A stretch of DNA of 64,000 nt. Origin: an uncultured Bacteroidales bacterium. Lineage in GTDB: Bacteria; Bacteroidota; Bacteroidia; Bacteroidales; F082. The translations under genes were made by a program, and so were the position numbers. Every line of letters begins with the position of its first letter. The first letter of the stretch is position 1. The DNA is taken from the NCBI GenBank assembly GCA_946405575.1, contig CAMJHP010000002.1, forward strand, positions 1 to 64,000. Direction: 5' to 3'. The notes beneath the pieces were generated by a model. The model made no database searches and was not told the origin of the DNA. It saw only the letters and a list, made by a program, of their open reading frames with translations. Of this stretch, positions 1-13,404 are shown piece after piece.

Positions 1-89
1 TTGTCGCTTTGCAAGCAAAATCCCACTAAACCCTATAGGTTGCGGATTTGAGGTTAAAGTTGCCCTCTTTTCTTTATACAGCGGCCGGA

Positions 90-105
90 CGGCGGTAAAC
101 CGCCG
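90..105. other. GC-rich hairpin upstream of the rloAB-like pair
   Basis: A perfect 6-bp stem CGGCGG/CCGCCG with a 4-base TAAA loop. It sits before the first promoter of the window and may be the 3' end of a transcript that begins outside the window. No T-run follows, so a terminator role is doubtful. Confidence 0.3.
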
Positions 106-160
106 CCGACACCTTCTTGAATGGGTAAGCTGTAATAAAAAGACAATCCGACTATTTTTT

Positions 161-177
161 CCGTGATTTTTTCACGG
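161..177. promoter_or_regulatory. Palindromic operator candidate before rloA
   Basis: CCGTGA and TCACGG are separated by a T5 spacer. The arms lie 18 bp upstream of the -7 box TATCTTTG (195-202), so the right arm covers the place where a -33 box would sit. A repressor bound here would block the promoter. The palindrome is seen directly; the operator role is inference. Confidence 0.4.
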
Positions 178-194
178 ATGTATGAAAAAAGTTG

Positions 195-203
195 TATCTT
201 TGC
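195..203 (+). promoter_or_regulatory. Bacteroidota -7 element for rloA
   Basis: TATCTTTGC matches TAnnTTTG followed by C and lies 29 bp upstream of the ATG at 233. No clean TTTG -33 box is present at 19-21 bp, which fits a promoter controlled through the overlapping palindrome. Confidence 0.6.
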
Positions 204-232
204 GGAAAATTCAAATCTAACACTTTACCATC

Positions 233-1528
233 ATGTTGCTTCGATTGGAAATACAGAACTTTCTGTCGTTTTATGACAAAACGGTGTTCGACATGTTTCC
301 TAACCCTAAAAGGGAACACTTCCAGAACCATGTGTACAACGAAAAGATTCCGCTGCTCAAAATGGCGGCTATTTATGGCGAAAATGGGTCAGGAAAATCG
401 AATTTCGTGAAGGCTTTGGGGTTTGTGAAGTCGTTTGTGGAGGATGACGATTTCCTGAAGAAGATCAACCTGGGCGAATACCGATTCCAACTGTCGGAAC
501 AAAGCAACCTGCCGATTTCGCTGACGATTGAGTTTTGCGAAAAAGGCAGCTATTACATCTACGAAATGACTATCAACGGCGACATTGAAGAGCGGTTTTC
601 GATTTCGGGCCTCGGTGAAACGGAGAACCAACTGCTGTTTGAACGCAAGGGGGTGAATGTCGTTTCAGAGTTGATAGAAAACCAGGAAGTGGTTGAAAGG
701 TTGCTGTCGCTGAACAGACACTCTTCCATCCTGTCCCACAGGAAATACCCCGTTTTCAAGCAGAACAAGGATATTGGCAATCTTTTTAACTGGTTTAATG
801 ACTTGGATGTCATCACCATCAATTCAAACATTCCGACTTTAATCGACTTGCTTTCGAACTATTCGGAGCTGTTTGACTTCGCCAACGAAGTGATGAAGAA
901 CATCGGTATCACCAATTCGTTGACCATCAAGGAAACACCGTTGGAAGAATGGATTGTGCAACAAGACATCACGGGGCTGAAAGATGTACTGGAAAGCAAC
1001 GGCATTGACGACAATTCGGGTTTGGCCGTCCTCAGGAACAACCGTAACGAGTACAGCGTTTCGATGAAGGACGGGGAAAAGATTGTGAAGGAGTTCTTGT
1101 TTGAACAGTTGGGCGTGAATGGTTTCAAGAAACCGTTGAAAATAGCGACACAATCGGACGGCACTGTCAGATTGTTGACGCTTATTCCAGCTTTGTTTGA
1201 TGCCATTAGGAGGGGCAAGGTGGTGGTGATTGATGAGTTGGAGAACAGTATCCATCCTAATCTTGTGTATCGACTGGTAAAATACTACTCCACCAGCCAT
1301 TGCAGCGGACAGCTGATTTACACCACACATCTGACGCAGCTTCTTGACCAACAGAATCTGATTCGACCTGACGAGGTGTGGAAGACTGAGAAAGAAAACG
1401 GCTGCACAAGGATGAGCTCGTTCAACGACTTCAAGATCCACAGCACGATGAACATTGAAAAGGGTTACATCGAGGGCCGCTATGGAGGAATCCCGAGCAT
1501 TTCAAAAATCGCTTCCGATGAGCAATAA
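233..1528 (+). CDS. rloA: RloA/AbiLi-like AAA ATPase
   Basis: A 431-aa ATP-binding protein of the AAA_21/RloA type. The N-terminus LRLEIQNFLSF is the usual beginning of SMC/OLD-like ATPases. Walker A GENGSGKS is at residues 49-56, a signature-like QSDGTVR near 307-313, Walker B VVVIDELE at 330-337, and an H-loop TTHL at 364-367, so the ATPase looks intact. The stop codon overlaps the next gene, which encodes a RloB-like protein; this pair is known as restriction-linked rloAB and resembles the AbiLi/AbiLii abortive-infection pair. I infer an anti-phage or stress role in the cytoplasm. The ATG at 233 follows the -7 box by a short leader. Confidence 0.82.
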   Translation: MLLRLEIQNFLSFYDKTVFDMFPNPKREHFQNHVYNEKIPLLKMAAIYGENGSGKSNFVKALGFVKSFVEDDDFLKKINLGEYRFQLSEQSNLPISLTIEFCEKGSYYIYEMTINGDIEERFSISGLGETENQLLFERKGVNVVSELIENQEVVERLLSLNRHSSILSHRKYPVFKQNKDIGNLFNWFNDLDVITINSNIPTLIDLLSNYSELFDFANEVMKNIGITNSLTIKETPLEEWIVQQDITGLKDVLESNGIDDNSGLAVLRNNRNEYSVSMKDGEKIVKEFLFEQLGVNGFKKPLKIATQSDGTVRLLTLIPALFDAIRRGKVVVIDELENSIHPNLVYRLVKYYSTSHCSGQLIYTTHLTQLLDQQNLIRPDEVWKTEKENGCTRMSSFNDFKIHSTMNIEKGYIEGRYGGIPSISKIASDEQ

Positions 1529-2300
1529 CTGGTCATACAGCAAAGGTGAACCGAGAAAAGAGCCTTTGGACATCACCGCACATAAGACTGAGAACGAAAG
1601 CGCGGAAAAAAAGTCCTTGAACGAGGTGGCCGTTTCGTACCAGAAAGGCGAAGGTGTGCTCATTCCAAAGGCGTTCATCGTGATTGTTACAGGTGGCGAG
1701 CGGGAAAAGGACTACTTCAAACGAGTTAGTGACATTGAGAAGCTTAAGGTTGCCTCGTTTGTCGAGCCTAATTTTGACAAGGATGACGAGCCGAGGATTT
1801 TCAAGTTTGCCATCGACAAGGTGGAAGACTACAAGGCTTCGTCGAGCCCGGACAATCCAGACAGCTATTATCTGATTACGGATGTGGATCATTTCGGGCG
1901 GCACATTGTGGCTCATCATAAAGAGTGTGTCGATGCAGGCATTCGGATGATTGTTAGCAACCCTTGTTTTGAGGTGTGGCTGTATTATGGGTATCACAGT
2001 GACAAGTTTGTTGATTTCGTGAAACCTGGCGAGTTGAGTAAGCTGAGTTCTGCGTTGAAGAAGTATGTCAATACGAGCGTTGAAGGAGGATTGAATGTCA
2101 GGAATGCTATCTTCAGGCTTACCGAGAACATAAAGAACGCCGAGCTGAACTACTCATGTGACAAGAACCAGATGCCTGAATTGTATTCCACGGATATGTT
2201 TATTCTTGGCAAGGATATTCTACCATTTGTTGAAGAGGAGCTGAAGGCACAGGAGAAACGGATAGAGGAATTGGCGGAATTGCATCGGAAGAATAATTAA
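1518..2300 (+). CDS. rloB: RloB/AbiLii-like TOPRIM-type protein
   Basis: 260 aa if it starts at the ATG at 1518, inside the last codons of rloA (GATGAGCAATAA, 11-bp overlap), a typical translational-coupling arrangement; an in-frame ATG at 1455 would add 21 residues of low likelihood. The conserved core starts near residue 53 with IVIVTGGEREKDYFKRV (family: glycine, then glutamate, then YF), followed by LITDVDHFG (about 120-127) and SNPCFEVWLYYGY (147-159). These are the landmarks of RloB (PF13707), thought to be a TOPRIM-like nuclease domain. The charged N-terminal 50 residues are not conserved in the family as I recall it. It probably acts with the RloA ATPase as the effector. Confidence 0.8.
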   Translation: MSNNWSYSKGEPRKEPLDITAHKTENESAEKKSLNEVAVSYQKGEGVLIPKAFIVIVTGGEREKDYFKRVSDIEKLKVASFVEPNFDKDDEPRIFKFAIDKVEDYKASSSPDNPDSYYLITDVDHFGRHIVAHHKECVDAGIRMIVSNPCFEVWLYYGYHSDKFVDFVKPGELSKLSSALKKYVNTSVEGGLNVRNAIFRLTENIKNAELNYSCDKNQMPELYSTDMFILGKDILPFVEEELKAQEKRIEELAELHRKNN

Positions 2301-2305
2301 AAGGC

Positions 2306-2323
2306 CGAATTATGTGTAATTCG
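2306..2323 (+). terminator. Weak hairpin between convergent genes
   Basis: CGAATTA and TAATTCG pair around a TGTG loop just after the rloB stop, followed by a T-containing but not T-rich stretch. A second inverted repeat lies at 2374-2401 (CCAAA..CTTTTG / CAAAAG..TTTGG). Either could help end the two converging transcripts; neither is a textbook terminator. Confidence 0.3.
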
Positions 2324-2457
2324 CTAATATTACTCTTTGTCTATATGAATTAACATGAATATGTATTTTTTTACCAAACCCTTTTGAACAAAAGCCTTTG
2401 GGCGGAGAAGGATTTGAAAAACAAATTTCATCCTCTTTTCTTCTTATCCGTTCTCTG

Positions 2458-3357
2458 TTACCCTTTGGTGCAGTTGTCCTCACAATTATCCATATTTTTA
2501 AAGACAATACCAGGCTTCTTTTTTTTACGGCTTACAACAATGATAAGAGCAATTCCATAAATAATCTGTCGCATATTAGCAGCAATGGAAGATGGCATTC
2601 CTACGAATCTTAATATCTCAGGCAACAGCACAAGGAAAACAGCCGCGAGAAACACCCCTCGCAGATTTCGCATACCGCCAATGATAACGATACTCAAAAT
2701 GAATATTGACTCGTCCAACGTGAAACTTGTTGGATCGATATAGGAGATGTAATAGGCATAAAGAACACCAGCAATTGATGCCAGCATGCCACTAATGACA
2801 AACGAAACCACTTTTGCCTGACCGACATTCTTGCCCAAACTGTCAGTATAGATCTCATCCTCGCTCAAAGCACGCAATAAACGCCCAAAAGGAGACTTAG
2901 TAATATTGTGTAGAATAAACCAAACCAAAGCTGTCAATACAGATGACAAAGCCAAGAACGCCCATTTGCTTTCCAACGGAACACCAAACAACGAAATAGT
3001 TGGAATTCCGCTAATGCCTAACGGTCCATTGGTAACACTTTGCCAATTGTTCATAATGGAGTATATCACCACTTGTATACCCAGTGTTATTACAACATAA
3101 TAATCGTCCACTGTCTTCACCGCAACTTTAGCCACAATAAAAGCAATAATCCCAGATATAAGCAGAGCAATAATCAGGTTTAGTATTGCTGGTGTGCCGA
3201 AGTTGACAGCCATAAGTGCCGCGGCGTATGCGCCAATGCCATAAAAACCAGCATGGGCAAGCGATATTTGTCCACTATAACCCGCCACCAAACTCAGCGA
3301 TTGAGAGAGAATGGAATAGATGCAAATCAATATGAGCAAATGCAATATATATTCCAT
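2458..3357 (-). CDS. livM: Branched-chain amino-acid-type ABC permease LivM
   Basis: A 299-aa inner-membrane permease. It is hydrophobic throughout, with GYSGQISLAHAGFYGIGAYAAALM near residues 28-50, the family hallmark of LivM, and a glycine-rich IGGMRNLRGVFLAAVFLVLLPE late in the protein, the usual coupling-helix region. It should form the channel with LivH, powered by LivG and LivF. It is the last gene of a seven-gene minus-strand operon, one base after livH. The true substrate is unknown: this family also carries urea, amides and other small polar molecules. The tail after residue 275 is short and charged (RKKKK, then several Cys). Confidence 0.88.
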   Translation of the reverse strand: MEYILHLLILICIYSILSQSLSLVAGYSGQISLAHAGFYGIGAYAAALMAVNFGTPAILNLIIALLISGIIAFIVAKVAVKTVDDYYVVITLGIQVVIYSIMNNWQSVTNGPLGISGIPTISLFGVPLESKWAFLALSSVLTALVWFILHNITKSPFGRLLRALSEDEIYTDSLGKNVGQAKVVSFVISGMLASIAGVLYAYYISYIDPTSFTLDESIFILSIVIIGGMRNLRGVFLAAVFLVLLPEILRFVGMPSSIAANMRQIIYGIALIIVVSRKKKKPGIVFKNMDNCEDNCTKG

Positions 3358-3358
3358 T

Positions 3359-4234
3359 TTACACCTCCGTTTTCTTTAATTTCTTTCCACTGAAGCCAAA
3401 TGGTCTGAAAAATAGGAAGATAACCAAAATAATATACGCAGTGGCATTCATCCATTTGCTGTCGAAGTAATATGCTGCCAAATGTTGAGATGCGGCTACT
3501 AATAGGGATCCCAATACCATAGTCCTCATCCCACCCATTCCACCTATTATCATAGCGACTACACCAAACATCATCCAATCAAACCCCATCGTCGGAATAA
3601 TATCAATATCTGCCGCGATCATTATTCCAGCAAAAGATGCCATCAAAGTTGCAACAAACATTCCAATTAAAGACACATGATAAGGATTAAGTCCATAAAC
3701 GGGAATCAAATCATGATTGGAAGATGCCGCTTTAATCTTCATACCAAGCGTTGTATTGTTTTCTAATACTCCCCAAAGGATGGATAGAAAAGCACACACC
3801 CCTAGACTCCATAATTGCACCATCGAGAGGTATGCATTTCCAATATTCACGCCTATTGAAGTTCCCCATGATTTAAAGCTCAACATTCCACTACCCCATA
3901 CTATCTCTATAACATTTAGAAAAACCACATTTATTCCAAGTGAAACAAGCATCATTCGCCATCCTTCAACACCTCTATTCCCTAATGGTAAATATACAAT
4001 CTTTTCAGCAGTCAACATTATGAGAATACACAGAACTACTGAAGAAAAGATTGAAAACCAAAATGGACAATTTGTTTCTCGAACAAACAAAAAAACTAAA
4101 TACGCGCCTAGAATGATCGAAATGGATTGTGCAATATTAAAAAATCGATGCGTCACATAATAAATATGAAACGATTTAGACAATATCAAGTAAATAAATG
4201 TCGTATATAGAATATTCAATATTATTTGCATCAT
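3359..4234 (-). CDS. livH: Branched-chain amino-acid-type ABC permease LivH
   Basis: A 291-aa inner-membrane permease. FNIAQSISIILGAYLVFL (residues about 32-50) is the LivH-like first conserved block (family: FNLAHGdlmMlGAY), and a late GMFVATLMASFAGIMIAADIDIIPTMGFD followed by VVAMIIGGMGGM is the usual C-terminal block. It pairs with LivM in the transporter. One base separates it from the gene before it and from livM after it. The conserved His of the first block is replaced by Gln, and overall the protein is divergent from amino-acid transporters I know, which fits an unusual substrate. Confidence 0.85.
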   Translation of the reverse strand: MMQIILNILYTTFIYLILSKSFHIYYVTHRFFNIAQSISIILGAYLVFLFVRETNCPFWFSIFSSVVLCILIMLTAEKIVYLPLGNRGVEGWRMMLVSLGINVVFLNVIEIVWGSGMLSFKSWGTSIGVNIGNAYLSMVQLWSLGVCAFLSILWGVLENNTTLGMKIKAASSNHDLIPVYGLNPYHVSLIGMFVATLMASFAGIMIAADIDIIPTMGFDWMMFGVVAMIIGGMGGMRTMVLGSLLVAASQHLAAYYFDSKWMNATAYIILVIFLFFRPFGFSGKKLKKTEV

Positions 4235-4235
4235 A

Positions 4236-5261
4236 TTAGTCCCATTCTTTGATTTTAGGAACGAAGTCTATGAACTCAGGTATTGTGACTACTTCACCAT
4301 GGAAACCCACCTCTCCTGTATGTTTATTTTCTACTATGTCAGAGTATTTGCCGAGCACCATTTTGTATTTTGAGCGAAAGCCAACCATCTTTTCTTCTAT
4401 TTCGTCACATGGTTTGAATACTACTTTATCTTCACCATAGGATAGCATATCTTTTAGATCAATCATACAGACCCTTGCCAACTCATTAATATTTCCATGT
4501 ATTTCGACATTAAAATAATTCCTCAATAAATAGTCTAACATTTTATTACCACTTGCTTTTGAAGAAAAACGAAAAAAAGTTCCTTCCTGACGAGTGCCAA
4601 TAATTTCTTCTATTGCATTTTTTATGTCTTGAGAATAATATGGACAGTGGAAAATGAATTTTACTTGATCACATTCCGATATAATATTATACATGGTACA
4701 ATGCTTTTGATTATGTTGAATAATATCAGAAACCCCAATATTGATATTGGGAGAGTAAATATGCAGTTCTTCCTTAGGATTAATCCTTTGCAGGTCTTTT
4801 GCATGCAACCTTAATGCAGCGAGGAAATCCTCTCCTGATTCAATTTTCTTAATATCAAGTTTTAATGATAGCAACAATGCGACAACTAATGAACAGAGAC
4901 TAATAACTATTGCATAATACTCTTTTCTTTCAATAATTAATGGTAATAAAGGAACATCTTTACCTACCAAAAGTAAAATCTCATATATTGCGATAAAAAC
5001 AGCTGCGATTAATACCGTGTATATAGAAATCATCCATTCATGCTTTGCTATTCCGTGCTTGAGTCTATATGTTAGTTTCTTAATATAGGATTTAAAATAT
5101 TTTTCAATTATTACGATATAAAGTACCGATAACAATATGATAACTATAACGCCCCATCCTATTAAATTAAACAATAGAGATAGTGCTGCAATAACAATAT
5201 TAATTAAGACAAAGAAGACAGTTAGAGTTATTATCCTCCAATGTGACACTTCCCTTTTCAT
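4236..5261 (-). CDS. Four-helix membrane protein of unknown function
   Basis: Not recognised. I choose the ATG at 5261 (341 aa) because it leaves a 1-base gap to the preceding gene, as do the other junctions of this operon; an ATG at 5288 would overlap that gene by 26 bp. The N-terminal half carries four hydrophobic segments (about residues 9-31, 36-56, 76-97 and 112-133). The C-terminal 200 residues are soluble and hydrophilic, with the stretches EELHIYSPNINIG, VKFIFHCPYYS, GTFFRFSSKASG and EVVTIPEFIDFVPKIKEW. It lies between an AlaRS-like protein and the permeases, so it probably acts with them at the membrane. No enzyme motif can be claimed. Confidence 0.75.
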   Translation of the reverse strand: MKREVSHWRIITLTVFFVLINIVIAALSLLFNLIGWGVIVIILLSVLYIVIIEKYFKSYIKKLTYRLKHGIAKHEWMISIYTVLIAAVFIAIYEILLLVGKDVPLLPLIIERKEYYAIVISLCSLVVALLLSLKLDIKKIESGEDFLAALRLHAKDLQRINPKEELHIYSPNINIGVSDIIQHNQKHCTMYNIISECDQVKFIFHCPYYSQDIKNAIEEIIGTRQEGTFFRFSSKASGNKMLDYLLRNYFNVEIHGNINELARVCMIDLKDMLSYGEDKVVFKPCDEIEEKMVGFRSKYKMVLGKYSDIVENKHTGEVGFHGEVVTIPEFIDFVPKIKEWD

Positions 5262-5262
5262 T

Positions 5263-6342
5263 TTATTTAAATTTTTGTTCCCGGACATAGGCTTGTTTTT
5301 GTAAATCTATAATACGATTGCCAAAAATACCAAAGGCATCATCCTTAATTTGATATCTATAATACTTTCTTTTCATTTCTTCTTTAATGATATTCAATAG
5401 GGGCTCACTCGGTATTGATAAAAACTCCATTTCCGAAATAACTTTTGCAAAATATGATTTCATTATTTTCCCTTGAGGAGTATTGTCAAATGTCTGATCA
5501 TCATTAAGTAAGAATATTAAAGTCTTAGACAATTCGATTATTCTTATTAGTTTATCAATAATAATATCTGAACTATCCTTTGAAAGTCTCATCAATTCTC
5601 TAATCTTTTGTATCGAGTTGCTATAGAAAGGAAGTTCGAATGCGCTTTCCAAGTTATTAGTAACGAACTCTATCCTTTCTAAACCAACGCCACACCCAAT
5701 TCCTGTATTCACAGTTTTTTCCAAGTAGGATAATTTATTTATATATTGATAAATGTTTGATGATGCTATTTCTATAAACCTATTGTTTCTTTTGACAAAG
5801 AATTCCACATTATAACCAGCCAAACGATCTATGCCACGACTGAGCATAAAGTTTCTCCTTCCTTTTGTAAGGATTATATGTTTGTCGTTAATTCCAATAG
5901 CCTTAAAGATCTCAACAGAATCAGTATCTAATGGCATTTCTTGATCCAAGAAAACGCCTCCTTCACAGGCTGTAACATAGATTTCATCTCGAGGAATACC
6001 ACATAATTCAAGAAACTCTACGAGCAAAGACAACTGCTTATATTCCTCAGCTTTCTTGTCATCAATGAATCCAAATCCGCCCCATACACCCATTTCAAAG
6101 AGCAATAGATGCTCATAACTGACTCCTACTATCTGTGCATCAACCTTGCGAACACATAAGTCTATAACTGAAATATTATCCTTTTTTACTTTTTCTGGAT
6201 TTAAAATGGCCGGAACTAAATAACTATGTCCTCCGCTTAGATTAAATTCACCCTTAAAATACTTGGACACAAGATTACTCCGTTCAACAAAGCGGAAACT
6301 GTTTTCTTGAGTGAACCTCTCAAATAAACTATATATATCCAT
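5263..6342 (-). CDS. Stand-alone alanyl-tRNA-synthetase-like catalytic protein
   Basis: A 359-aa protein that reads as the N-terminal half of AlaRS. FTQENSFRFVERSNLV at the start matches the AlaRS motif 1 region. CVRK (63-66) followed by LFEMGVWGGFGF (81-92) matches CVRAGGKHNDLE...FFEMLGNFSFGDY, including the motif 2 Arg. EIASSNIYQYI (191-201) matches EIWNLVFMQF. GIGCGVGLER (214-223) is motif 3. The last 120 residues resemble the AlaRS helical domain (DDQTFDNTPQGKIMKSY). Editing and C-Ala domains are absent (full AlaRS is about 870 aa). It should bind ATP and a small amino acid; transfer to tRNA is doubtful. It sits inside an amino-acid-type ABC transporter operon, so it may activate or sense the imported compound. 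Confidence 0.72.
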   Translation of the reverse strand: MDIYSLFERFTQENSFRFVERSNLVSKYFKGEFNLSGGHSYLVPAILNPEKVKKDNISVIDLCVRKVDAQIVGVSYEHLLLFEMGVWGGFGFIDDKKAEEYKQLSLLVEFLELCGIPRDEIYVTACEGGVFLDQEMPLDTDSVEIFKAIGINDKHIILTKGRRNFMLSRGIDRLAGYNVEFFVKRNNRFIEIASSNIYQYINKLSYLEKTVNTGIGCGVGLERIEFVTNNLESAFELPFYSNSIQKIRELMRLSKDSSDIIIDKLIRIIELSKTLIFLLNDDQTFDNTPQGKIMKSYFAKVISEMEFLSIPSEPLLNIIKEEMKRKYYRYQIKDDAFGIFGNRIIDLQKQAYVREQKFK

Positions 6343-6344
6343 AA

Positions 6345-7424
6345 TTACTGTTTTTCCATAATTAGTTCGGGAAGAATGTCATTAGTTGCAGTAATTTCTA
6401 TACGGCTTCCAAGTATGTCAAGTTCGGAATGGCTCTTAATGTCATTAGCTACCGATACGGGATTTACTCCGTTAGAACTATTTAAATATACAATCATTGC
6501 GCTATTAAAGAAAATCAATTCGGCAGTACCTATTTTACACCCATTTCTCTTTTCATAGTCTGTGACAAAATTGGAAAGGTCTTCCGTAAGTTCTGACTTT
6601 TTAAAGTTAACCATAGTCAAATTACTTATATCAGCAGTTAGAGCACCTGCCCCAGAAACCACATAAGATAACGTTGTAATAATCTCACCCTGATAATTCT
6701 GCTCTCTGAGTTTAATAATCAAATTTGAAATGTTCTTTCCTCCTGCACAAATAATGATTTTTTGTGCGCCAGAATCAATAACCTTTTTTGCCAATGTCTG
6801 AAAATTCGTTTCATTCGCAGGGAATGGGAAATCAGCAATTAGTTTTTCACTTCCTAAACTATTCATTAACGAGGAACTAAATGCCACTCCAAAATCATCA
6901 TTCATGTAACAAAGAGCAAAATTTGAGGATGTGTCAACATTGTCCAAAATGAACGACACCTCTTGAGTAACTGTTTGAGAATGTCTAAAAAACAAACTAT
7001 CAACAGCACTTAATGAAGGATGGGACGCATGAGAAAACATAAGTGTTCCCTGTTTTTGATGGATTGGTATCAATGCCAAATCAATTGAACTGACAATCGA
7101 GAACACCGTACTAATCTTATCAATTGTCACGAGTTTATTAACAGCACTTATTGAGGATGCAGTATTTCCCATGCCGTCCTCAATTTGTATTTTGAGTTGC
7201 CTTTCGGGATAATATTTATTTACATATTCCTCTGCCATTCTCAATCCATGACTTGCAGATTCTCCAACAGATGATAAATTACCTGTCATTGGCAAAACAG
7301 CCCCGATTTGCACTGTGTCCTTTTTATCAACTGGACGTTTTTTCTGGTTCAAAAAGAGCCATACTGATGCGCCCACAATTAATGCGACGCAAATAAGAAT
7401 TCCTACGATACTTCTTTTTTTCAT
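6345..7424 (-). CDS. LivK-type substrate-binding protein, membrane-anchored
   Basis: A 359-aa type I periplasmic binding protein: VQIGAVLPMTGNLSSVGESASHGLRMAEE (residues 38-66) is the family opening, followed by repeated Rossmann-like segments (NFALCYMNDDFG, KKVIDSGAQKIIICAGG). The N-terminus MKKRSIVGILICVALIVGASVWLFLNQ is one hydrophobic helix with no lipobox Cys and no clear signal-peptidase I site, so it may stay as an uncleaved anchor in the inner membrane, facing the periplasm. It should deliver the ligand to LivHM. It lies 2 bases before the AlaRS-like gene and 11 bases after livF. The ligand is not predictable from sequence. Confidence 0.82.
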   Translation of the reverse strand: MKKRSIVGILICVALIVGASVWLFLNQKKRPVDKKDTVQIGAVLPMTGNLSSVGESASHGLRMAEEYVNKYYPERQLKIQIEDGMGNTASSISAVNKLVTIDKISTVFSIVSSIDLALIPIHQKQGTLMFSHASHPSLSAVDSLFFRHSQTVTQEVSFILDNVDTSSNFALCYMNDDFGVAFSSSLMNSLGSEKLIADFPFPANETNFQTLAKKVIDSGAQKIIICAGGKNISNLIIKLREQNYQGEIITTLSYVVSGAGALTADISNLTMVNFKKSELTEDLSNFVTDYEKRNGCKIGTAELIFFNSAMIVYLNSSNGVNPVSVANDIKSHSELDILGSRIEITATNDILPELIMEKQ

Positions 7425-7435
7425 AGTTGTGAATA

Positions 7436-8140
7436 TTAAACAATTTGTTGTAATATTGATTCTACAGACTTTAGATTCTTTTCAACGATTTTTCCTAATC
7501 GCATACAAAAGACCATACTTGCATAAGGCACCATCTCCTTTAAATGATGCTCAACAACCATCATAGTAGTCCCTTTTTCACGTATCCTGCCAAGTATGTC
7601 AATCACCTCGGGAATCTTATCCTCACTAAGCCCTGCCAGGGGCTCATCATACAGCAACATGGTTGGCCGATTAACCATAACCATGCCAAGCGCAAGCATC
7701 TTTCTCTCTCCCCCACTCAAACGTCCAGCGGTTTGTTTCCGGCGTTCTTTGAGCAGTGGCATCTCTTCCATCACTTCATCAATTCTTCTGATACTCTCTT
7801 TTCTGTTGTTGAGATGCAACAAGGAGAATTGCAAGTTCTCTAATACACTTACATCATCAAAAAGTTCATTTTTCTGCGGCACATACATAATCCCTCGATT
7901 CAGCAGAGTATGTGTCGGTGCTTTCTTTTCCCTATTGTGAAGCACTTTACCATCATATTCTACAGAACCTTGCCAGACATCTACCAATCCATAAATCAAC
8001 TTTAGCAAGGTGCTCTTTCCTGAGCCGTTTGAGCCAACCAACAATACCACATCTCCTTTTTCGATATCCATTGTAATGTCGAAAAGCACTTGCTTGTTGC
8101 CGTATCCTGTACTTGCGTTATGTATGGAAAGGAGACTCAT
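7436..8140 (-). CDS. livF: ABC transporter ATPase LivF
   Basis: A 234-aa ABC ATPase. Walker A GSNGSGKS is at 36-43, the signature LSGGERKM near 140, Walker B TMLLYDEPLAGLSED near 160, and the H-loop VVEHH near 197. Length and the late EHHLKEMVPYASMVFCMRLGKIV segment fit LivF. It overlaps livG by 4 bases (ATGA), so the two are translated together. With LivG it forms the nucleotide-binding pair for LivHM on the cytoplasmic face. Confidence 0.9.
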   Translation of the reverse strand: MSLLSIHNASTGYGNKQVLFDITMDIEKGDVVLLVGSNGSGKSTLLKLIYGLVDVWQGSVEYDGKVLHNREKKAPTHTLLNRGIMYVPQKNELFDDVSVLENLQFSLLHLNNRKESIRRIDEVMEEMPLLKERRKQTAGRLSGGERKMLALGMVMVNRPTMLLYDEPLAGLSEDKIPEVIDILGRIREKGTTMMVVEHHLKEMVPYASMVFCMRLGKIVEKNLKSVESILQQIV

Positions 8141-8883
8141 ACGTATGCGTTTAATACTTCTGGGGATTCTCTAAATTCTTGATACGAGCTGTATCTTTGT
8201 ACCAAGCCATTATGCAAGAAAAGAATTTCATCAGCAACAGCTTCGATGAAATCTGAATTGTGTTCGATAACAAACAATGCTTTACCTTGCTCCTCCAACC
8301 TCTTTACAACAGTGGCCAACTTCTCGCGAAACACAGGGTTGACACCGGCTGCTGGCTCATCCAACAGCAAAACAGAAGCATTGCTGGCCATACAACAAGC
8401 CAGATTCAACAATTTCTGTTGTCCGTAGGATATTTCATTAGCTTTGCTCTCAGCAATGTCATCAATAAAGCAATCCCTCAACAATTGGTCAGCTTGCGTG
8501 GAATTATGTCTTTGCTCTTGGCTCACTTTTTTATTGGGCAATAATGTCTTCCACCACTTTTCACCTTCTTGTTCTGGAAACGACAGCATGACATTCTCTT
8601 TTACCGAAAGTTCACCAATTAGACGCATATTCTGAAATGTTCTCCCAATTCCACTCCTTTTGCGCTGATAAGGCCTTAGCTTGTTTATTGATTCCTCATC
8701 AAGCAATATATCGCCTGCATCCTGACGGACAAATCCGGAAATGATATTGAATAAAGTTGTCTTACCCGACCCATTCGTACCCATCAAAACAGAAATCGAC
8801 CCACCAGAAACACTAAAAGAAACATCCCGAAGAACCTCATGTTCTCCGTATGACTTCTTTATATTTCTGACAGTCAGTATCAT
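8137..8883 (-). CDS. livG: ABC transporter ATPase LivG
   Basis: A 248-aa ABC ATPase and the first gene of the operon. Walker A GTNGSGKT is at 35-42; GIGRTFQNMRLIGELSVKENVM is the Q-loop block typical of LivG; the signature is ISYGQQKLL and Walker B VLLLDEPAAGVNP, the latter characteristic of LivG. The start ATG is 102 bases downstream of a good -7 box. It heterodimerises with LivF. Confidence 0.9.
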   Translation of the reverse strand: MILTVRNIKKSYGEHEVLRDVSFSVSGGSISVLMGTNGSGKTTLFNIISGFVRQDAGDILLDEESINKLRPYQRKRSGIGRTFQNMRLIGELSVKENVMLSFPEQEGEKWWKTLLPNKKVSQEQRHNSTQADQLLRDCFIDDIAESKANEISYGQQKLLNLACCMASNASVLLLDEPAAGVNPVFREKLATVVKRLEEQGKALFVIEHNSDFIEAVADEILFLHNGLVQRYSSYQEFRESPEVLNAYV

Positions 8884-8985
8884 ATTTCTTTGACAACTTG
8901 TATTACTTTGAGTTTATTGATTCTCTTATAATCAATTCGTCTATGATGAATTAACCGTACATTCGGTACTTTATTATAATAGGGA

Positions 8986-9018
8986 GCAAAATTACAAAAA
9001 ACATTTCATCCATGCAAA
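8986..9018 (-). promoter_or_regulatory. Promoter of the livG-AlaRS-like operon
   Basis: On the minus strand TTTG (9018-9015) and TAATTTTGC (9994-style -7 at 8994-8986) are separated by 20 bases, the normal Bacteroidota spacing. The leader to livG is about 100 bases, long enough to hold regulatory structure, though none is obvious. Confidence 0.7.
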
Positions 9019-9155
9019 ATGAAGAAAAAATAAAGAACATCGCAGGTTCAAATAGAAAGTGTAACAACAGAAATCCCGATGAAATCTATCGTTAGCATGA
9101 TAGCATCTATGTTCGTATGTCGGGTTGACAAATTAAATATTTTCTCAAAAAACCA

Positions 9156-9186
9156 TTGCAACAAAATATAAAAAAGCTACCTTTGC
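9156..9186 (+). promoter_or_regulatory. Promoter of the DUF4143-type ATPase gene
   Basis: TTG (9156-9158) and TACCTTTGC (9178-9186) are separated by 19 bases. Transcription should start around 9190-9192, just before the palindrome at 9199-9212. Confidence 0.7.
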
Positions 9187-9198
9187 ACCCGATAAATC

Positions 9199-9212
9199 TG
9201 TCACATGTGACA
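9199..9212. promoter_or_regulatory. Perfect palindrome in the ATPase leader
   Basis: TGTCACATGTGACA is a perfect 14-bp palindrome beginning 13 bp after the -7 box and ending 14 bp before the ATG. Position and symmetry fit a repressor operator, possibly autoregulation. The binding protein is unknown. Confidence 0.45.
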
Positions 9213-9226
9213 CAAAAAACGAATAA

Positions 9227-10480
9227 ATGGAAATCAGACGAGACTTATACTTGCAGAAGCTGATTGACCGTCGGCACAATGGATTGATTAAAGTCGTGAC
9301 GGGAGTACGTCGATGCGGAAAATCATACCTGGTGTTCAACCTGTTCAACGACTATCTGAAATCAAACGGCATTGATGACAGACATATTATCAAAGTGAAT
9401 TTGGAGAACCGCAGAAATAAGAAGCTTCGCAATCCTGATGCACTCCTTGAATATCTTGACGGAAAGTTTGTCGACAAGCAAATGCACTACATCTTGCTTG
9501 ATGAAGTGCAGATGGTGGATGAGTTTGAGGATGTGCTGAATAGCTATCTTGACATTCCCAATGCGGATGTGTATGTGACCGGCTCAAACGCCCGATTCCT
9601 TTCAAAAGATGTCATCACCGAGTTCCGTGGCCGAGGCGACGAGGTGAAGATTTATCCCCTCTCGTTTGTCGAGTTCATGACCGCTTACAACGGAAGCAAA
9701 CAACTGGGCCTGGACGAATTCATGACATTCGGAGGCCTTCCCCTGATACTCACCTATAAGACCGAAGAGCAGAAATCAGCATATCTGAAAAACCTGTTTG
9801 AAGAAACCTATATCAAAGACATCAAGGAACGTTATCAAATCAGGCACGAAGAAGAGTTTGAAGAGCTGCTCAACATCATTTCTTCGTCCATCGGGAGCCT
9901 CACCAACCCGACAAAGCTGTCCAAGACCTTCAAAAGCGTGAAGCAAGTGACCATCGACCCCGAAACCATCAAGAACTATCTCGAATACCTTTGCGACTCA
10001 TTCCTTGTGTCAAAAGCCATGCGCTATGATGTCAAAGGCAAAAAGTATATCGACACCCCATCCAAGTATTATTTCTCTGACATGGGTTTGCGCAACGCCC
10101 GCATCAATTTCCGACAGGACGAAAAGACCCACATAATGGAAAATGTCATTTACAATGAGCTGTTGATTCGTGGCTTCAACGTTGACGTGGGTGTCGTCCC
10201 CGTGGTCATCCGCGACGAGAACGGCAAGCAAAAGCGTTCCCAATTGGAGATTGACTTTGTGTGCAACCAAGGCAGCAAACGCTATTATATCCAATCGGCC
10301 TTCCGGATAAACAGCGAGAGCAAGGAGCAACAAGAACAAGCCTCTTTAAACAAGGTGAACGACTCGTTCAAAAAGATCATCATCACTGGCGAGGAATGCC
10401 TCGTCCATCGCAACGATTACGGTATCACTACGATGAGTATCTATGACTTTCTTCTTAACTCTAATGCTTTGGAATTATAG
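9227..10480 (+). CDS. AAA ATPase with DUF4143-type C-terminus
   Basis: 417 aa. Walker A GVRRCGKS is at 26-33 and Walker B YILLDEVQ at 88-95; FTGSNARFLS-like VYVTGSNARFLSKD and YPLSFVEFM follow, as in the family AAA_14 plus DUF4143. The C-terminal part (ENVIYNELLIRGFNVDVG...QLEIDFVCNQGSKRYYIQSAF) has the layout of a PD-(D/E)XK-like nuclease fold: Glu, Asp-x-Phe, then a Gln in place of the usual ExK. Such ATPases are common and variable in number in Bacteroidales; their cellular role is not known. It is monocistronic, with its own promoter, and faces the next operon tail to tail. Confidence 0.85.
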   Translation: MEIRRDLYLQKLIDRRHNGLIKVVTGVRRCGKSYLVFNLFNDYLKSNGIDDRHIIKVNLENRRNKKLRNPDALLEYLDGKFVDKQMHYILLDEVQMVDEFEDVLNSYLDIPNADVYVTGSNARFLSKDVITEFRGRGDEVKIYPLSFVEFMTAYNGSKQLGLDEFMTFGGLPLILTYKTEEQKSAYLKNLFEETYIKDIKERYQIRHEEEFEELLNIISSSIGSLTNPTKLSKTFKSVKQVTIDPETIKNYLEYLCDSFLVSKAMRYDVKGKKYIDTPSKYYFSDMGLRNARINFRQDEKTHIMENVIYNELLIRGFNVDVGVVPVVIRDENGKQKRSQLEIDFVCNQGSKRYYIQSAFRINSESKEQQEQASLNKVNDSFKKIIITGEECLVHRNDYGITTMSIYDFLLNSNALEL

Positions 10481-10596
10481 ACATTGAAAAGCTAATCTCC
10501 TCTGATCAAACTCTTTCCCCTCACCCAAGGGTAAGATAATATACCATTGAAGAAAAACATAAAAAATGCACTTTTTATAATGTACAGAAAAAAAGA

Positions 10597-10622
10597 AAAG
10601 TAACGACAAATGCCGTTACTTT
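10597..10622. terminator. Bidirectional terminator candidate
   Basis: AAAGTAACG and CGTTACTTT form a 9-bp stem with an 8-base loop, with A-rich sequence before and T/C-rich sequence after. It lies between the converging ATPase gene and the regulon A operon and could end both transcripts. Confidence 0.5.
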
Positions 10623-10679
10623 CCCTTTTCCCCCTCAACCTAACAGGTCGAAGCTTTTTCGAGCGAAACAATAAACCGC

Positions 10680-11171
10680 TCAATGGAACATATCATCGGT
10701 TAGTTTGAGGGTGTAGGTTCTTGTACCTTCATAGCCTTCATCGTCAGGATTGCAAGTCCATGCTTCGCGCTTAAAGAAGAAACGCTGGCCTTCAGTGGCG
10801 TTATCATCATGTCGAAAGATGATGGTAGATGCACCATCAGAACTCCGAGTGATTCTTACACTGTCAAAATCTGACATCAACTGGGTAAACGCCTGCTCAT
10901 TTGTTACAGATACGTGAGGCCCTCCTCCCGCGTTAAAAGAACTAATCGATACCTTTTCCATTTGAATTCCTGCATTGGTGGTATAAGGTGTTGTGTAATT
11001 TGTTACACCATTTTGATATGCATTACTCCATCCAATAAGTGTAATAGTGTCATTTGTCTCCCCTTTGAGTACAAAATCGACATCCACAAAATGTTCACAA
11101 GCTGAAAACAATATAGATAATGAAATAAGCAAAACCAACAACAATGAGTGTTTACAGATTTTATTCTTCAT
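10680..11171 (-). CDS. Small lipoprotein, last gene of regulon A
   Basis: 163 aa, not recognised. A hydrophobic signal (residues 8-24) ends in a lipobox LFSAC, so the mature protein should be a lipoprotein. The rest is beta-rich with GETNDTITLIGWSNAYQNG and IIFRHDDNATEGQRFFFKREAW. It follows the metallopeptidase lipoprotein by 24 bases and is probably co-transcribed with it. An envelope role is all that can be inferred. Confidence 0.7.
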   Translation of the reverse strand: MKNKICKHSLLLVLLISLSILFSACEHFVDVDFVLKGETNDTITLIGWSNAYQNGVTNYTTPYTTNAGIQMEKVSISSFNAGGGPHVSVTNEQAFTQLMSDFDSVRITRSSDGASTIIFRHDDNATEGQRFFFKREAWTCNPDDEGYEGTRTYTLKLTDDMFH

Positions 11172-11195
11172 TTCTATTTTCCTCCATAGATTAGA

Positions 11196-13088
11196 TTAAT
11201 AACCATAGGTTGTAAAAAGCTGGTTTATTTTAGTTGCATTGCTCTGATAAGCAGAAAGCAGTTTCGATTTTAAGCTTCCTCCATTTAATGTGGTACTTGT
11301 CATGCAATTATATACAGGAGACAAATCACTCAGGCTACCAATATGCAGATTGTCTGTAATATAATTGATAATCTGAAGTGTTTGACCATTTATCAACTTA
11401 GATTGCGAATCTACTTCATTGTCAACGATATCCCAAAATAGCCCTGTCAATAACCAACAGTTCATGTAGCCTGACATTGTTGGCGATTGAGAAGGTCTAG
11501 TCCGCATAGTGAATCCTTCTATTTGATTCTTGTATTTATATGAATTGGCATTACCATCATAATAATGGTTCATACATTTATTGCAAACAAAATCTGCCCA
11601 TCCTTCACACAAAGCAATTAATTGTCCACTTGCATCAGATGGAATAAGACCATTCTGATAAGGATCGTGATTAGAATTGTTCAAAATGTTTTCAAATTCA
11701 CGACGGACAAACTCACTCCAGAAACTGCCTCCAGCTTTGACACCATGACTAAAATGTCCAGCTTCATGGAACAAAACATCTTCAATGTTCTCAACATCTT
11801 GGCTTGAACTAGAAAAAGAGAGTACAATATCGGGATAAAGATGTCCAAATAACAAACCAAACTGTGTTCCTATGGGATAGGTAATTGGTGCAAAGTATTG
11901 AAGCCAACCTGAAAGCAATCCATTGTATGTAACCGCCCATGTGTATTTTTTTGCCATGGGTGTCGCCCCTCCCATTCCATTTGAGGAAACCATTACCCAG
12001 ATATTGGCATCATTATGAATTCCTGTAACGCCACAAGATTCCATATGTTGGTTATATTTGTACAAAGCGTTACTGACAATGGCTTTATACCAAAGATGAG
12101 TATTGGTATTGTCTATTTTGATTACTTTGTATGGGCCCGAAGAACCTTGGTTCATATAACAAATGGCATCAGAAGTGGCAATACCAAGCATCTCGTTCCA
12201 ACTTTTGCGGATAATGTAGTCACCATTGCGCCATGTTGCTCTTACCTTTACTTCACCACGCATCTTCTTGTTAAGTTTGAAATGGCCATTAGCATCGGTA
12301 AAAACCGCATAAGGGATACCCCATCTCACAATTTGGAGTTTTGTGTTTTTAACTGGCTCATAATTGTTACCTGAGGTTTGAACTTTCAAGATTCCTTCAG
12401 GATAGTAGTTCCCACTTCCTTTTGTTGATTCTGGAAGAGCAAGATATTCAGGCAATGTGGAAACGCTTAAGTCCTCACCATTATACTGGATACCTAATTG
12501 ATCGGCATTTCCGGTAAGCACATACGAAACAACAGTAAGGTCAAACTGTTCTTCATCAGGGTCGAAAAGGGTGTCAATCACCGTATAGGGAACAGCAGGA
12601 AGGACATCACCAATCGGAATGCTGGCATAAAGAGGGGCAAACTTGTTTTGTGTTTCCTCTGAAACGGAAATGTAACTCCCTTCTTGCAATACTACATTCT
12701 GAATTGGGTAGTTGTACAAGGCATACGTGTTGCATAAGGAGTCAAGCAAAGTAAGATGCTCGTTGGTAGTTGGATTAAACTGCACATAGTAATGGGTTGG
12801 AAAAACCACTATCAAACCGTGGTTAGAATTGGCATTGATGAAATTTGCTGCCGTACGCATATTCCTTAATGAGAATGGAATACCCCTGTCGTTTCCGATT
12901 ACCATCATACTTGACCCATCACCATCTCTTGCCCCACTAACAGGAAGCTCAGATGTTGTGTACGAAAGTGGTGATGAAGGATCTTGAAATTGGTTTTCAG
13001 TAGCTGTTTCTTGTTTTTTGCAGCTAAAAGCCAACAATGCCATAGCTGTCAACATGAACATTGTTTTGATTTTGTTTTTACTAAACAT
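11196..13088 (-). CDS. Lipoprotein zinc metallopeptidase, HEAGH...EGWAD type
   Basis: 630 aa. The signal ends in the lipobox LAFSC (Cys23). VLFHEAGHFSHG (HEAGH at 441-445) supplies two zinc ligands and the catalytic Glu, and CEGWADF (495-499) about 50 residues later supplies a Glu in the way of gluzincins. A carboxypeptidase-regulatory-like beta segment lies at about 245-290 (PVKNTKLQIVRW...DANGHFKLNKKMRGEVKVRA). I infer a surface or periplasmic protease attached to the outer membrane. It lies within the long operon downstream of the regulon A operators. The family cannot be fixed more precisely without a profile search. Confidence 0.72.
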   Translation of the reverse strand: MFSKNKIKTMFMLTAMALLAFSCKKQETATENQFQDPSSPLSYTTSELPVSGARDGDGSSMMVIGNDRGIPFSLRNMRTAANFINANSNHGLIVVFPTHYYVQFNPTTNEHLTLLDSLCNTYALYNYPIQNVVLQEGSYISVSEETQNKFAPLYASIPIGDVLPAVPYTVIDTLFDPDEEQFDLTVVSYVLTGNADQLGIQYNGEDLSVSTLPEYLALPESTKGSGNYYPEGILKVQTSGNNYEPVKNTKLQIVRWGIPYAVFTDANGHFKLNKKMRGEVKVRATWRNGDYIIRKSWNEMLGIATSDAICYMNQGSSGPYKVIKIDNTNTHLWYKAIVSNALYKYNQHMESCGVTGIHNDANIWVMVSSNGMGGATPMAKKYTWAVTYNGLLSGWLQYFAPITYPIGTQFGLLFGHLYPDIVLSFSSSSQDVENIEDVLFHEAGHFSHGVKAGGSFWSEFVRREFENILNNSNHDPYQNGLIPSDASGQLIALCEGWADFVCNKCMNHYYDGNANSYKYKNQIEGFTMRTRPSQSPTMSGYMNCWLLTGLFWDIVDNEVDSQSKLINGQTLQIINYITDNLHIGSLSDLSPVYNCMTSTTLNGGSLKSKLLSAYQSNATKINQLFTTYGY

Positions 13089-13140
13089 GATTTTAAATTT
13101 TTAAAGGTTTAACATTTAATTATTGATAAAAGTATCGTTT

Positions 13141-13404
13141 TCATTTGTCGCTTTCACTCCGTCCCATCCCATTACGCATCCTTTCTCTTCGAGGAATTAG
13201 TTTATAGAATGTTTTCATGGAGTCTTCTTTCAAGCTGTCTGGCTTGGCTTCAACCCTCTCCCCTTTCCCCCTCTGAGAGGGGGGCTGGGGAGATTCCTTG
13301 CGGTTTCCCTGGTGGCATTCTGTCAAAAGAAAGAAAACAACGGAAATCATTGCAAACAAGGGTACCAACAGTCTTGTTTTTCCTTTTTTCTTCACCTTAT
13401 CCAT
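13141..13404 (-). CDS. Small putative lipoprotein carrying a palindromic insert
   Basis: 87 aa. A Lys-rich start and hydrophobic stretch (10-29) ending in LLTEC suggest a lipoprotein, although the lipobox is imperfect. Residues about 37-50 are encoded by a 35-base REP-like palindrome, which reads through in frame. The C-terminal stretch EDSMKTFYKL...RMRNGMGRS has an eroded relative at 38585-38685. The gene is 7 bases after the hydrolase gene and 52 before the metallopeptidase. It may be a decaying member of a small repeated gene family rather than a functional gene. Confidence 0.5.
   Translation of the reverse strand: MDKVKKKGKTRLLVPLFAMISVVFFLLTECHQGNRKESPQPPSQRGKGERVEAKPDSLKEDSMKTFYKLIPRRERMRNGMGRSESDK
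13258..13292. repeat. REP-like palindrome inside a small gene
   Basis: Arms CTCCCC and CCCCCTCT pair with AGAGGGGG and GGGGAG around a single G, with a 3-base mismatch (TTT against GCT). C/G-run palindromes of this kind are dispersed repeats in many Bacteroidota and Cyanobacteria. It adds Pro/Arg-rich residues to the host protein. Confidence 0.7.

Follow-up and report, generated by a model that had tools for sequence, protein, structure and literature searches.

Branched-chain importers of the Liv/HAAT type are built from five standard parts: two ATPases (LivG and LivF), two permeases (LivH and LivM) and a substrate-binding protein (SBP). We analyzed a 64,000-nucleotide stretch of DNA from an uncultured Bacteroidales bacterium (assembly GCA_946405575.1, contig CAMJHP010000002.1, positions 1 to 64,000; hereafter the window), in which the same five parts are encoded in one operon. 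Unlike in described Liv/HAAT importers, cargo genes lie inside this operon and the SBP is swapped independently of the other Liv genes. Comparison with related operons showed that the four Liv genes (livG, livF, livH and livM) form a conserved chassis and that the SBP together with the cargo forms a swappable cassette. In the window the cargo consists of AlaL, a 359-aa protein resembling alanyl-tRNA synthetase (AlaRS), and a transmembrane (TM) protein. This seven-gene order is also found in a metagenome-assembled genome of Planctomycetota (locus L037), so the gene order is not unique to this genome and, because it recurs, the operon is not a product of chance.

Several described systems share part of this arrangement. 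AlaL is homologous to the N-terminal half of bacterial AlaRS (PF01411, TIGR00344) over approximately positions 10-342 with the ATP-site residues kept, but it is devoid of the rest of the tRNA domain and of the editing and C-Ala domains, its alanine pocket is replaced and the acceptor arginines are partly replaced. AcmF from ascamycin synthesis is likewise AlaRS-like, truncated and free-standing, and acts outside translation; it reportedly keeps the tRNA recognition domain, is without most ATP-site residues and, unlike AlaL, is encoded in a nucleoside cluster and not in an importer operon (PMC12945691). The closest precedent in signalling comes from type III CRISPR systems, in which a conjugate of ATP and an amino-acid derivative, SAM-AMP, acts on the membrane effector CorA; this messenger is made by the type III CRISPR complex rather than by a synthetase-like protein, and the abstract of the report mentions no importer (PMC10600005). 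Finally, vWA-MoxR and related conflict systems combine a conserved core with variable parts and interchangeable effectors; a radical SAM protein is mentioned as one effector and, in a two-gene membrane system, a domain of the periplasmic-binding-protein type as one of the variable parts. The core described there is not an importer, and the terms ABC transporter, branched-chain and permease are missing from the portion of the text concerned (PMC7159879). No AlaRS-like or importer-based conflict system of such kind was found in the open-access PMC literature searched, in agreement with an earlier sequence-only reading of this DNA, which knew of no described system joining a complete Liv-type importer to a stand-alone AlaRS catalytic protein. 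As far as that literature goes, the importer cassette system is undescribed.

The operon spans positions 2458-8883 of the window on the minus strand and runs livG, livF, SBP, AlaL, TM protein, livH, livM. The chassis ATPases are encoded at 8137-8883 (livG-like; PF00005, ABC_tran, 108.9 bits; closest named models UrtD/LivG) and 7436-8140 (livF-like; PF00005, 110.4 bits), and the chassis permeases at 3359-4234 (livH-like; PF02653, BPD_transp_2, 86.9 bits) and 2458-3357 (livM-like; PF02653, 142 bits). Between them lies the cassette, with a type I SBP at 6345-7424 (PF13458, Peripla_BP_6, 92.3 bits), AlaL at 5263-6342, recognized by PF01411 and hhalign as a stand-alone AlaRS-like class II catalytic core with part of the helical domain, and the TM protein at 4236-5288, with three to four N-terminal TM segments and a soluble C-terminal part of approximately 200 aa according to hydropathy. 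Two ATPases, two BPD_transp_2 permeases and a type I SBP constitute the gene set of a Liv/HAAT ABC importer; the solved SBPs nearest by sequence are of HAAT type, and the host genome (73.8% complete) yielded no BPD_transp_2 permease other than the two in the window. The SBP carries a hydrophobic segment at its N-terminus by hydropathy, and no canonical lipobox was seen by eye. Intergenic gaps, from livM up to livG, measure 1, 1, -26, 2, 11 and -4 bases. The sequence-only reading was right about gene order and coordinates, but its gaps of 1-11 bases or a 4-base overlap missed the 26-base overlap of the TM protein and AlaL genes as called. A start at Met10 of the TM protein (~5261) leaves a 1-base gap instead, Met10 aligns with Met3 of the L037 TM protein, and the true start may lie near 5261. 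The same reading described a four-helix membrane protein: three segments of the window protein are clear by hydropathy, and a fourth, N-terminal one is possible as judged by eye. The TM protein had no Pfam match at E<=1, Rfam had no match within positions 1-12000, and promoter and terminator scans gave no more signals than shuffled sequence.

Cassette exchange was visible in four loci whose chassis are closely similar (L096, L098, L100 and L101). Their LivM proteins share 88.5-91.8% identity, LivG 84-94%, LivF 76-83% and LivH 74-79%, but the SBPs only 25-33%, and the cargo families differ. The LivM of L097, a locus without a usable SBP, is 89-93% identical to those of the four. As a control, one ordinary Liv pair (L115 and L118, the single such pair) showed 86% identity in LivH and 64% in the SBP. 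Among relatives from the genus that we label g99, DNA similarity breaks near the 3' end of livF and picks up again in the 5' part of livH, with the L096/L101 breakpoints about 70 and 210 bases inside. The downstream chromosomal flank is common to L097, L098, L100 and L103, so that three different cassettes and a deletion occupy one and the same site. The deletion, L103 (2947-4262), fuses the beginning of livG with the latter half of livM, where the other three loci have operons of this type. The G+C content of SBP and cargo is below that of the chassis in 10 out of 10 operons (0.335 versus 0.397 in the window).

In the window and L037 the SBPs are 51.7% identical (52% rounded), with 37.0% for the next best of 36 SBP pairs, and their AlaL and TM proteins share 58% and 28%, respectively; their chassis are among the least alike (LivM 60%, LivG 42%, LivF 36%, LivH 35%). 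In the chassis tree L037 groups with L099 (96/96) and a clade of window and L037 is rejected (approximately unbiased test, p=0.012, for a pair chosen after the identities had been seen), and in the SBP tree window and L037 are united with 100/100 support. The cassette of SBP, AlaL and TM protein thus moves as a unit. Since the SBP travels with AlaL and the TM protein, the function of AlaL would be tied to the ligand of the SBP.

LivM is the best marker of this Liv type. A LivM profile built from the window and L037 found matches at E<=1e-40 in 12 of 246 and 15 of 395 genomes, at 31 places including the two starting loci, and the surroundings of the 29 further loci were retrieved for comparison. 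We define group A as 12 loci, namely the window, L037, L094-L102 (LivM of at least 431 bits) and the fragment L103, with the line drawn after the scores had been seen; group A relatives scored 431-475 bits and all other Liv operons at most 338. All five Liv parts are present in 10 of the 12 (in L095 with the SBP in pieces); of the other two, L097 is truncated at a contig end with its cargo visible, and L103 is a relic left by a deletion. Every one of the 10 complete loci holds at least two extra genes of at least 150 aa inside the operon, compared with 1 in 5 complete Liv operons with LivM at or below 46% (L112, L114, L115, L119 and L120), where the insert is a single 160-aa open reading frame (ORF); this difference (Fisher p=0.0037) refers to the complete operons among the retrieved loci, not to a designed sample. 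Among incomplete distant loci, inserts are missing from L113, L116, L118 and L121; in L117, two ORFs separate a livH from a second, distant ATPase match. Intermediate loci (L104-L109, L111 and L122) carry inserts in 5 of 8 cases; in L105, L109 and L111 the cargo lies directly beside the Liv genes instead of inside, and L110 is cut by a contig end. Within genus g99, 4 of 39 genomes have this Liv type, in one case as a relic.

The two AlaL proteins are 58% identical over 345 residues, encoded by intact ORFs in two phyla, and more conserved between the window and L037 than LivG, LivF, LivH and the SBP. The proposal of a stand-alone AlaRS-type core as a conserved member of a Liv operon thus holds for two loci in two phyla, with the ATP-site residues kept in both. 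A scan of genome contigs with exact AlaL peptide patterns, which finds only close relatives, returned L037 alone, and scans of IMG/VR with AlaL, the AlaL pair and the LivM pair found no relative. AlaL proper was detected in the window's own genome only among 60, 173 (same family) and 395 genomes, samples that overlap, and among 294 genomes of the L037 phylum in L037's own, with weak matches in 61 others. An order-level search of 393 genomes at E<=1e-10, again an overlapping sample, gave a second match in genome G1030 (E=8.7e-22). This is a stand-alone AlaRS-like protein of 383 aa from the chosen start (L062, contig C207, 5873-7024; PF01411, 117 bits) with Ala at the motif-3 Asp position, and visual inspection of the ORFs on its 11.9-kb contig revealed no Liv genes. 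Most other matches fell in open frames of approximately 830-1080 aa and are AlaRS. Those of other lengths were a 457-aa frame reaching a contig end (G845), frames of 585, 602 and 628 aa, an 84-aa frame with stops (G550) and the G1030 protein.

Two matches in phage records and two on plasmids were rejected as AlaL, being AlaRS or AlaRS within a biosynthetic-looking cluster. The phage records (L009 and L010; MT836110.1 and MT835476.1), labelled Bacteriophage sp. (unverified), carry ordinary bacterial housekeeping genes by eye, including alaS, and are probably bacterial contigs; the L009 AlaRS frame measures 837 aa and reaches the record end. The plasmid clusters, in Peribacillus (L007, NZ_CP068052.1, 3045-12302) and Exiguobacterium (L008, NZ_CP053558.1, 1-13047), encode a 595-aa AlaRS, asparagine synthetase A, ATP-grasp, MFS and S66 peptidase proteins, L007 additionally an AlaRS-related protein of 386 aa, and resemble a gene cluster for an aminoacyl-type natural product with self-resistance.

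A profile search of 5263-6342, suggested in the sequence-only reading, placed AlaL above the cut-off of PF01411 (tRNA-synt_2c; 37.5 versus 30.3 bits, E=1.4e-9), and the L037 protein scored 48.9 bits. Against full alanine--tRNA ligase models AlaL reached 54.2 and 48.5 bits, with cut-offs of 529 and 457 (the latter for TIGR00344). Its closest solved structures are AlaRS catalytic fragments (E=0.021 with the single sequence, E=1.1e-5 with a two-sequence profile), and hhalign aligned residues 2-319 of AlaL with template positions 10-342 of 37 AlaRS sequences (probability 99.1%, E=1.8e-18). AlaL has motif 2 (CVRK...LFEMG) and motif 3 (GVGLER), as first described. Residues invariant in all 37 AlaRS and conserved in both AlaL comprise C63, R65, D68, G73, H78, F82, E83 and M84 in the motif 2 region and G218, G220, E222 and R223 in motif 3. 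By comparison with E. coli AlaRS, we take R65, D68, H78, F82, E83, G218, G220, E222 and R223 to be the residues that hold ATP, and these are present in both AlaL. Other positions invariant in 37/37 AlaRS are changed in both: W to M166, N to S194, V to N196 and the pre-motif-3 D to G216, which presumably correspond to the E. coli residues holding alanine and its amino group. Four of the five residues of the GPCGP loop are also changed in both. The ATP site thus looks intact and the acid pocket new.

Conserved arginines of the acceptor helix are partly changed as well (S296 and A299 in both AlaL), recognizable AlaRS similarity stops near AlaRS position 342, and AlaL ends 40 residues further on; at 359 aa it leaves no room for the editing and C-Ala domains, whose absence had been noted correctly. 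Binding of tRNA by AlaL is unlikely, and so is the loading of the imported molecule on to tRNA that had been suggested among other fates, because the acceptor-helix arginines are partly replaced and the similarity ends before the rest of the tRNA-recognition domain. Each of the two genomes also encodes a normal, full-length AlaRS (open frames 869 and 886 aa long). We conclude that AlaL is not an alanyl-tRNA synthetase.

Cargo in the slot proved diverse. An enzyme or TIR domain scored above the Pfam cut-off in all 11 group A loci other than L103. Besides the AlaRS-like cargo of the window and L037, we found a core resembling seryl-tRNA synthetase (SerRS) in L095, radical SAM proteins in L094, L096, L099 (twice) and L102, methyltransferases in L094 and L101 (in L102 below the cut-off), TIR_2 in L096, RelA_SpoT in L097, GGDEF with a SLATT-like protein below the cut-off in L098 and an aminotransferase in L100. 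More distant Liv operons carry a caspase with another type of methyltransferase (L107), a polyprenyl synthetase (L104), radical SAM proteins (L105, L106 twice and L108) and a methyltransferase with a phosphoesterase (L109). Many cargo proteins, membrane proteins above all, matched no Pfam family. The SLATT-like membrane protein and GGDEF protein of L098 (4739-8678) resemble a cyclase and pore pair, and in L097 (9253-13455) the RelA/SpoT-type synthetase is accompanied by a 778-aa protein with an N-terminus that is TIR-like by eye, not a Pfam match.

The L095 core is a 301-aa protein (PF00587, 31.1 bits; cut-off 29.3) adjoining a protein with two TM segments. Like type-2 (methanogen-type) SerRS it is a class II core, here standing alone; the closest solved relative is type-2 SerRS 3w3s (E=8e-22), with R-x-E of motif 2 and the motif 3 Arg aligned. 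SerRS-like carrier-protein ligases are related enzymes; unlike these, the L095 protein occupies a Liv cassette slot, and the three cargo and flank proteins scanned in L095 included no carrier protein. Within 11070-13277 of this locus the SBP gene is split by a 348-aa ORF that is transposase-like by eye, with livG, livF, livH, livM and the cargo still open. Because two different class II cores occupy one slot, acid activation with ATP is most likely the chemistry common to it. A PLD-like soluble domain suspected by eye to be common to the cassettes' membrane proteins gave no hhalign score above controls and was discarded. Similarly, a PADLOC match of the TM protein to CARF_2M (E=0.0085, TM stretch only) was taken as chance, and weak PHROG matches were not accepted.

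Defence-type PADLOC matches were found beside the operon in 5 of the 8 loci with scanned flanks (the window, L094-L096, L098, L099, L101 and L102; long ORFs picked by length). In the window, an AAA_21 and RloB pair at 233-2300 on the plus strand (PF13304, PF13707; AbiL-like), included as context only, matched AbiLi (5.8e-66) and AbiLii (1.9e-15), and a divergent ATPase gene upstream of livG (9227-10480) matched PDC-S01 (1.2e-118). The other matches were PDC-M68B in L094, PDC-M23B and PDC-S27 in L098, DpdE and DrmMI in L099, and AbiU and Avs3a (E=1e-210) in L102. The scanned flanks of L095, L096 and L101 had no match at E<=1e-8.

We tentatively favor a reading in which the importer takes up a cassette-specific ligand, AlaL uses ATP on this ligand and the TM protein responds. 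The cassette SBP would bind one specific small molecule for the Liv pump to carry into the cell, where AlaL would activate or conjugate it with ATP into an acyl- or aminoacyl-adenylate or a product thereof; the soluble part of the TM protein would then receive this product and produce a response. We infer import, ligand adenylation, TM-protein readout and a conflict role from the gene content and residue pattern; a signalling or conflict role, possibly against phages, is more probable than one in nutrition or tRNA charging. A broader proposal, speculative and unlikely, is that such operons form a new class of importer-based immune or conflict systems, in which exchangeable SBPs recognize different extracellular danger or competitor molecules, exchangeable synthetases make an intracellular messenger from the imported molecule and ATP, and an effector fires. 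Here the messenger would be an acyl- or aminoacyl-adenylate from a repurposed class II tRNA synthetase, and across the class messengers would trigger a membrane, TIR, caspase or other effector.

Other explanations account for part of these observations. That AlaL is a decaying alaS fragment inserted by accident in a Liv operon would fit its truncation and the normal AlaRS in both genomes, but L037 contradicts it, with 58% identity, intact ORFs, two phyla and the same gene order, and it can hardly be right. Very improbable, too, is a transfer of alanine from Ala-tRNA to the imported molecule, as carried out by the truncated AlaRS-like AcmF in ascamycin synthesis; AlaL shows the reverse pattern of what is reported for AcmF, with its ATP site kept, S296 and A299 in place of conserved residues and no similarity past approximately AlaRS position 342 (PMC12945691). 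The cassette might instead serve nutrient scavenging, combining an SBP with enzymes for one unusual nutrient, with AlaL activating an imported acid for catabolism. This would suit a Liv chassis that is an importer, the joint exchange of SBP and cargo, and cargo such as radical SAM proteins, methyltransferases and the aminotransferase, but TIR_2, RelA_SpoT, GGDEF and caspase cargo are not nutrient enzymes, the neighbours are of defence type and presence is patchy (AlaL in 1 of 173 family genomes, the Liv type in 4 of 39 g99 genomes, one a relic), making this explanation rather unlikely.

HisZ and the HisRS-like part of GCN2 are precedents for synthetase relatives acting as non-enzymatic sensors, and AlaL could in this manner sense a ligand or ATP and gate the importer or the membrane protein. 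The motif-3 Asp and the Asn and Trp of the alanine pocket are replaced identically in both AlaL, as in a specific binding site, and the AlaL gene directly adjoins that of the membrane protein. Such a role is nevertheless unlikely given that both ATP arginines and other ATP-site residues are conserved in 2/2 AlaL, that the motif 2 and 3 residues of the L095 core align with solved type-2 SerRS, and that a Pfam-recognized enzyme or TIR domain is present in all 11 group A loci except the relic L103. Signal release and re-uptake, for which AI-2/Lsr is the model, would have AlaL or other cargo enzymes make a molecule that exits and re-enters by its cognate SBP and Liv pump. We consider such private signalling improbable: cargo and SBP are swapped together and the cargo families include typical small-molecule makers, but a Pfam scan revealed no exporter family among 40 cargo and flank proteins, AlaL alone with ATP makes for a short pathway, and effector-type cargo requires further explanation.

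Several points weigh against the reading that we favor, of ligand import, activation by AlaL and response by the TM protein. Residue conservation rests on two AlaL sequences (n=2), and the change of the motif-3 Asp could have cost AlaL its catalytic activity. AlphaFold models from two-sequence alignments were poor (mean pLDDT 48.7 for AlaL and 38.0 for the TM protein); support for the homology of AlaL with AlaRS comes from the profile-profile comparison instead. No relative could be detected for the soluble part of the TM protein, including among the membrane proteins of other cassettes. Radical SAM, methyltransferase and aminotransferase cargo fit nutrient processing too. AlaL and the SBP had no PADLOC match at E<=0.01, cassette proteins match no defence family convincingly, and the flank scan had no background control, with 3 of its 8 loci giving nothing. 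In addition, the window branch of the chassis tree is long and its own position unresolved.

In summary, two independent tRNA synthetase cores, one AlaRS-like and one SerRS-like, have been recruited to the same slot of a conserved transporter operon. If the proposed mechanism is true, this would be modular sensing, with the specificity part (the SBP) and the response part (the enzyme and effector) swapped together within a conserved transporter, and it would offer a direct route for pairing orphan enzymes with ligands through their SBPs.

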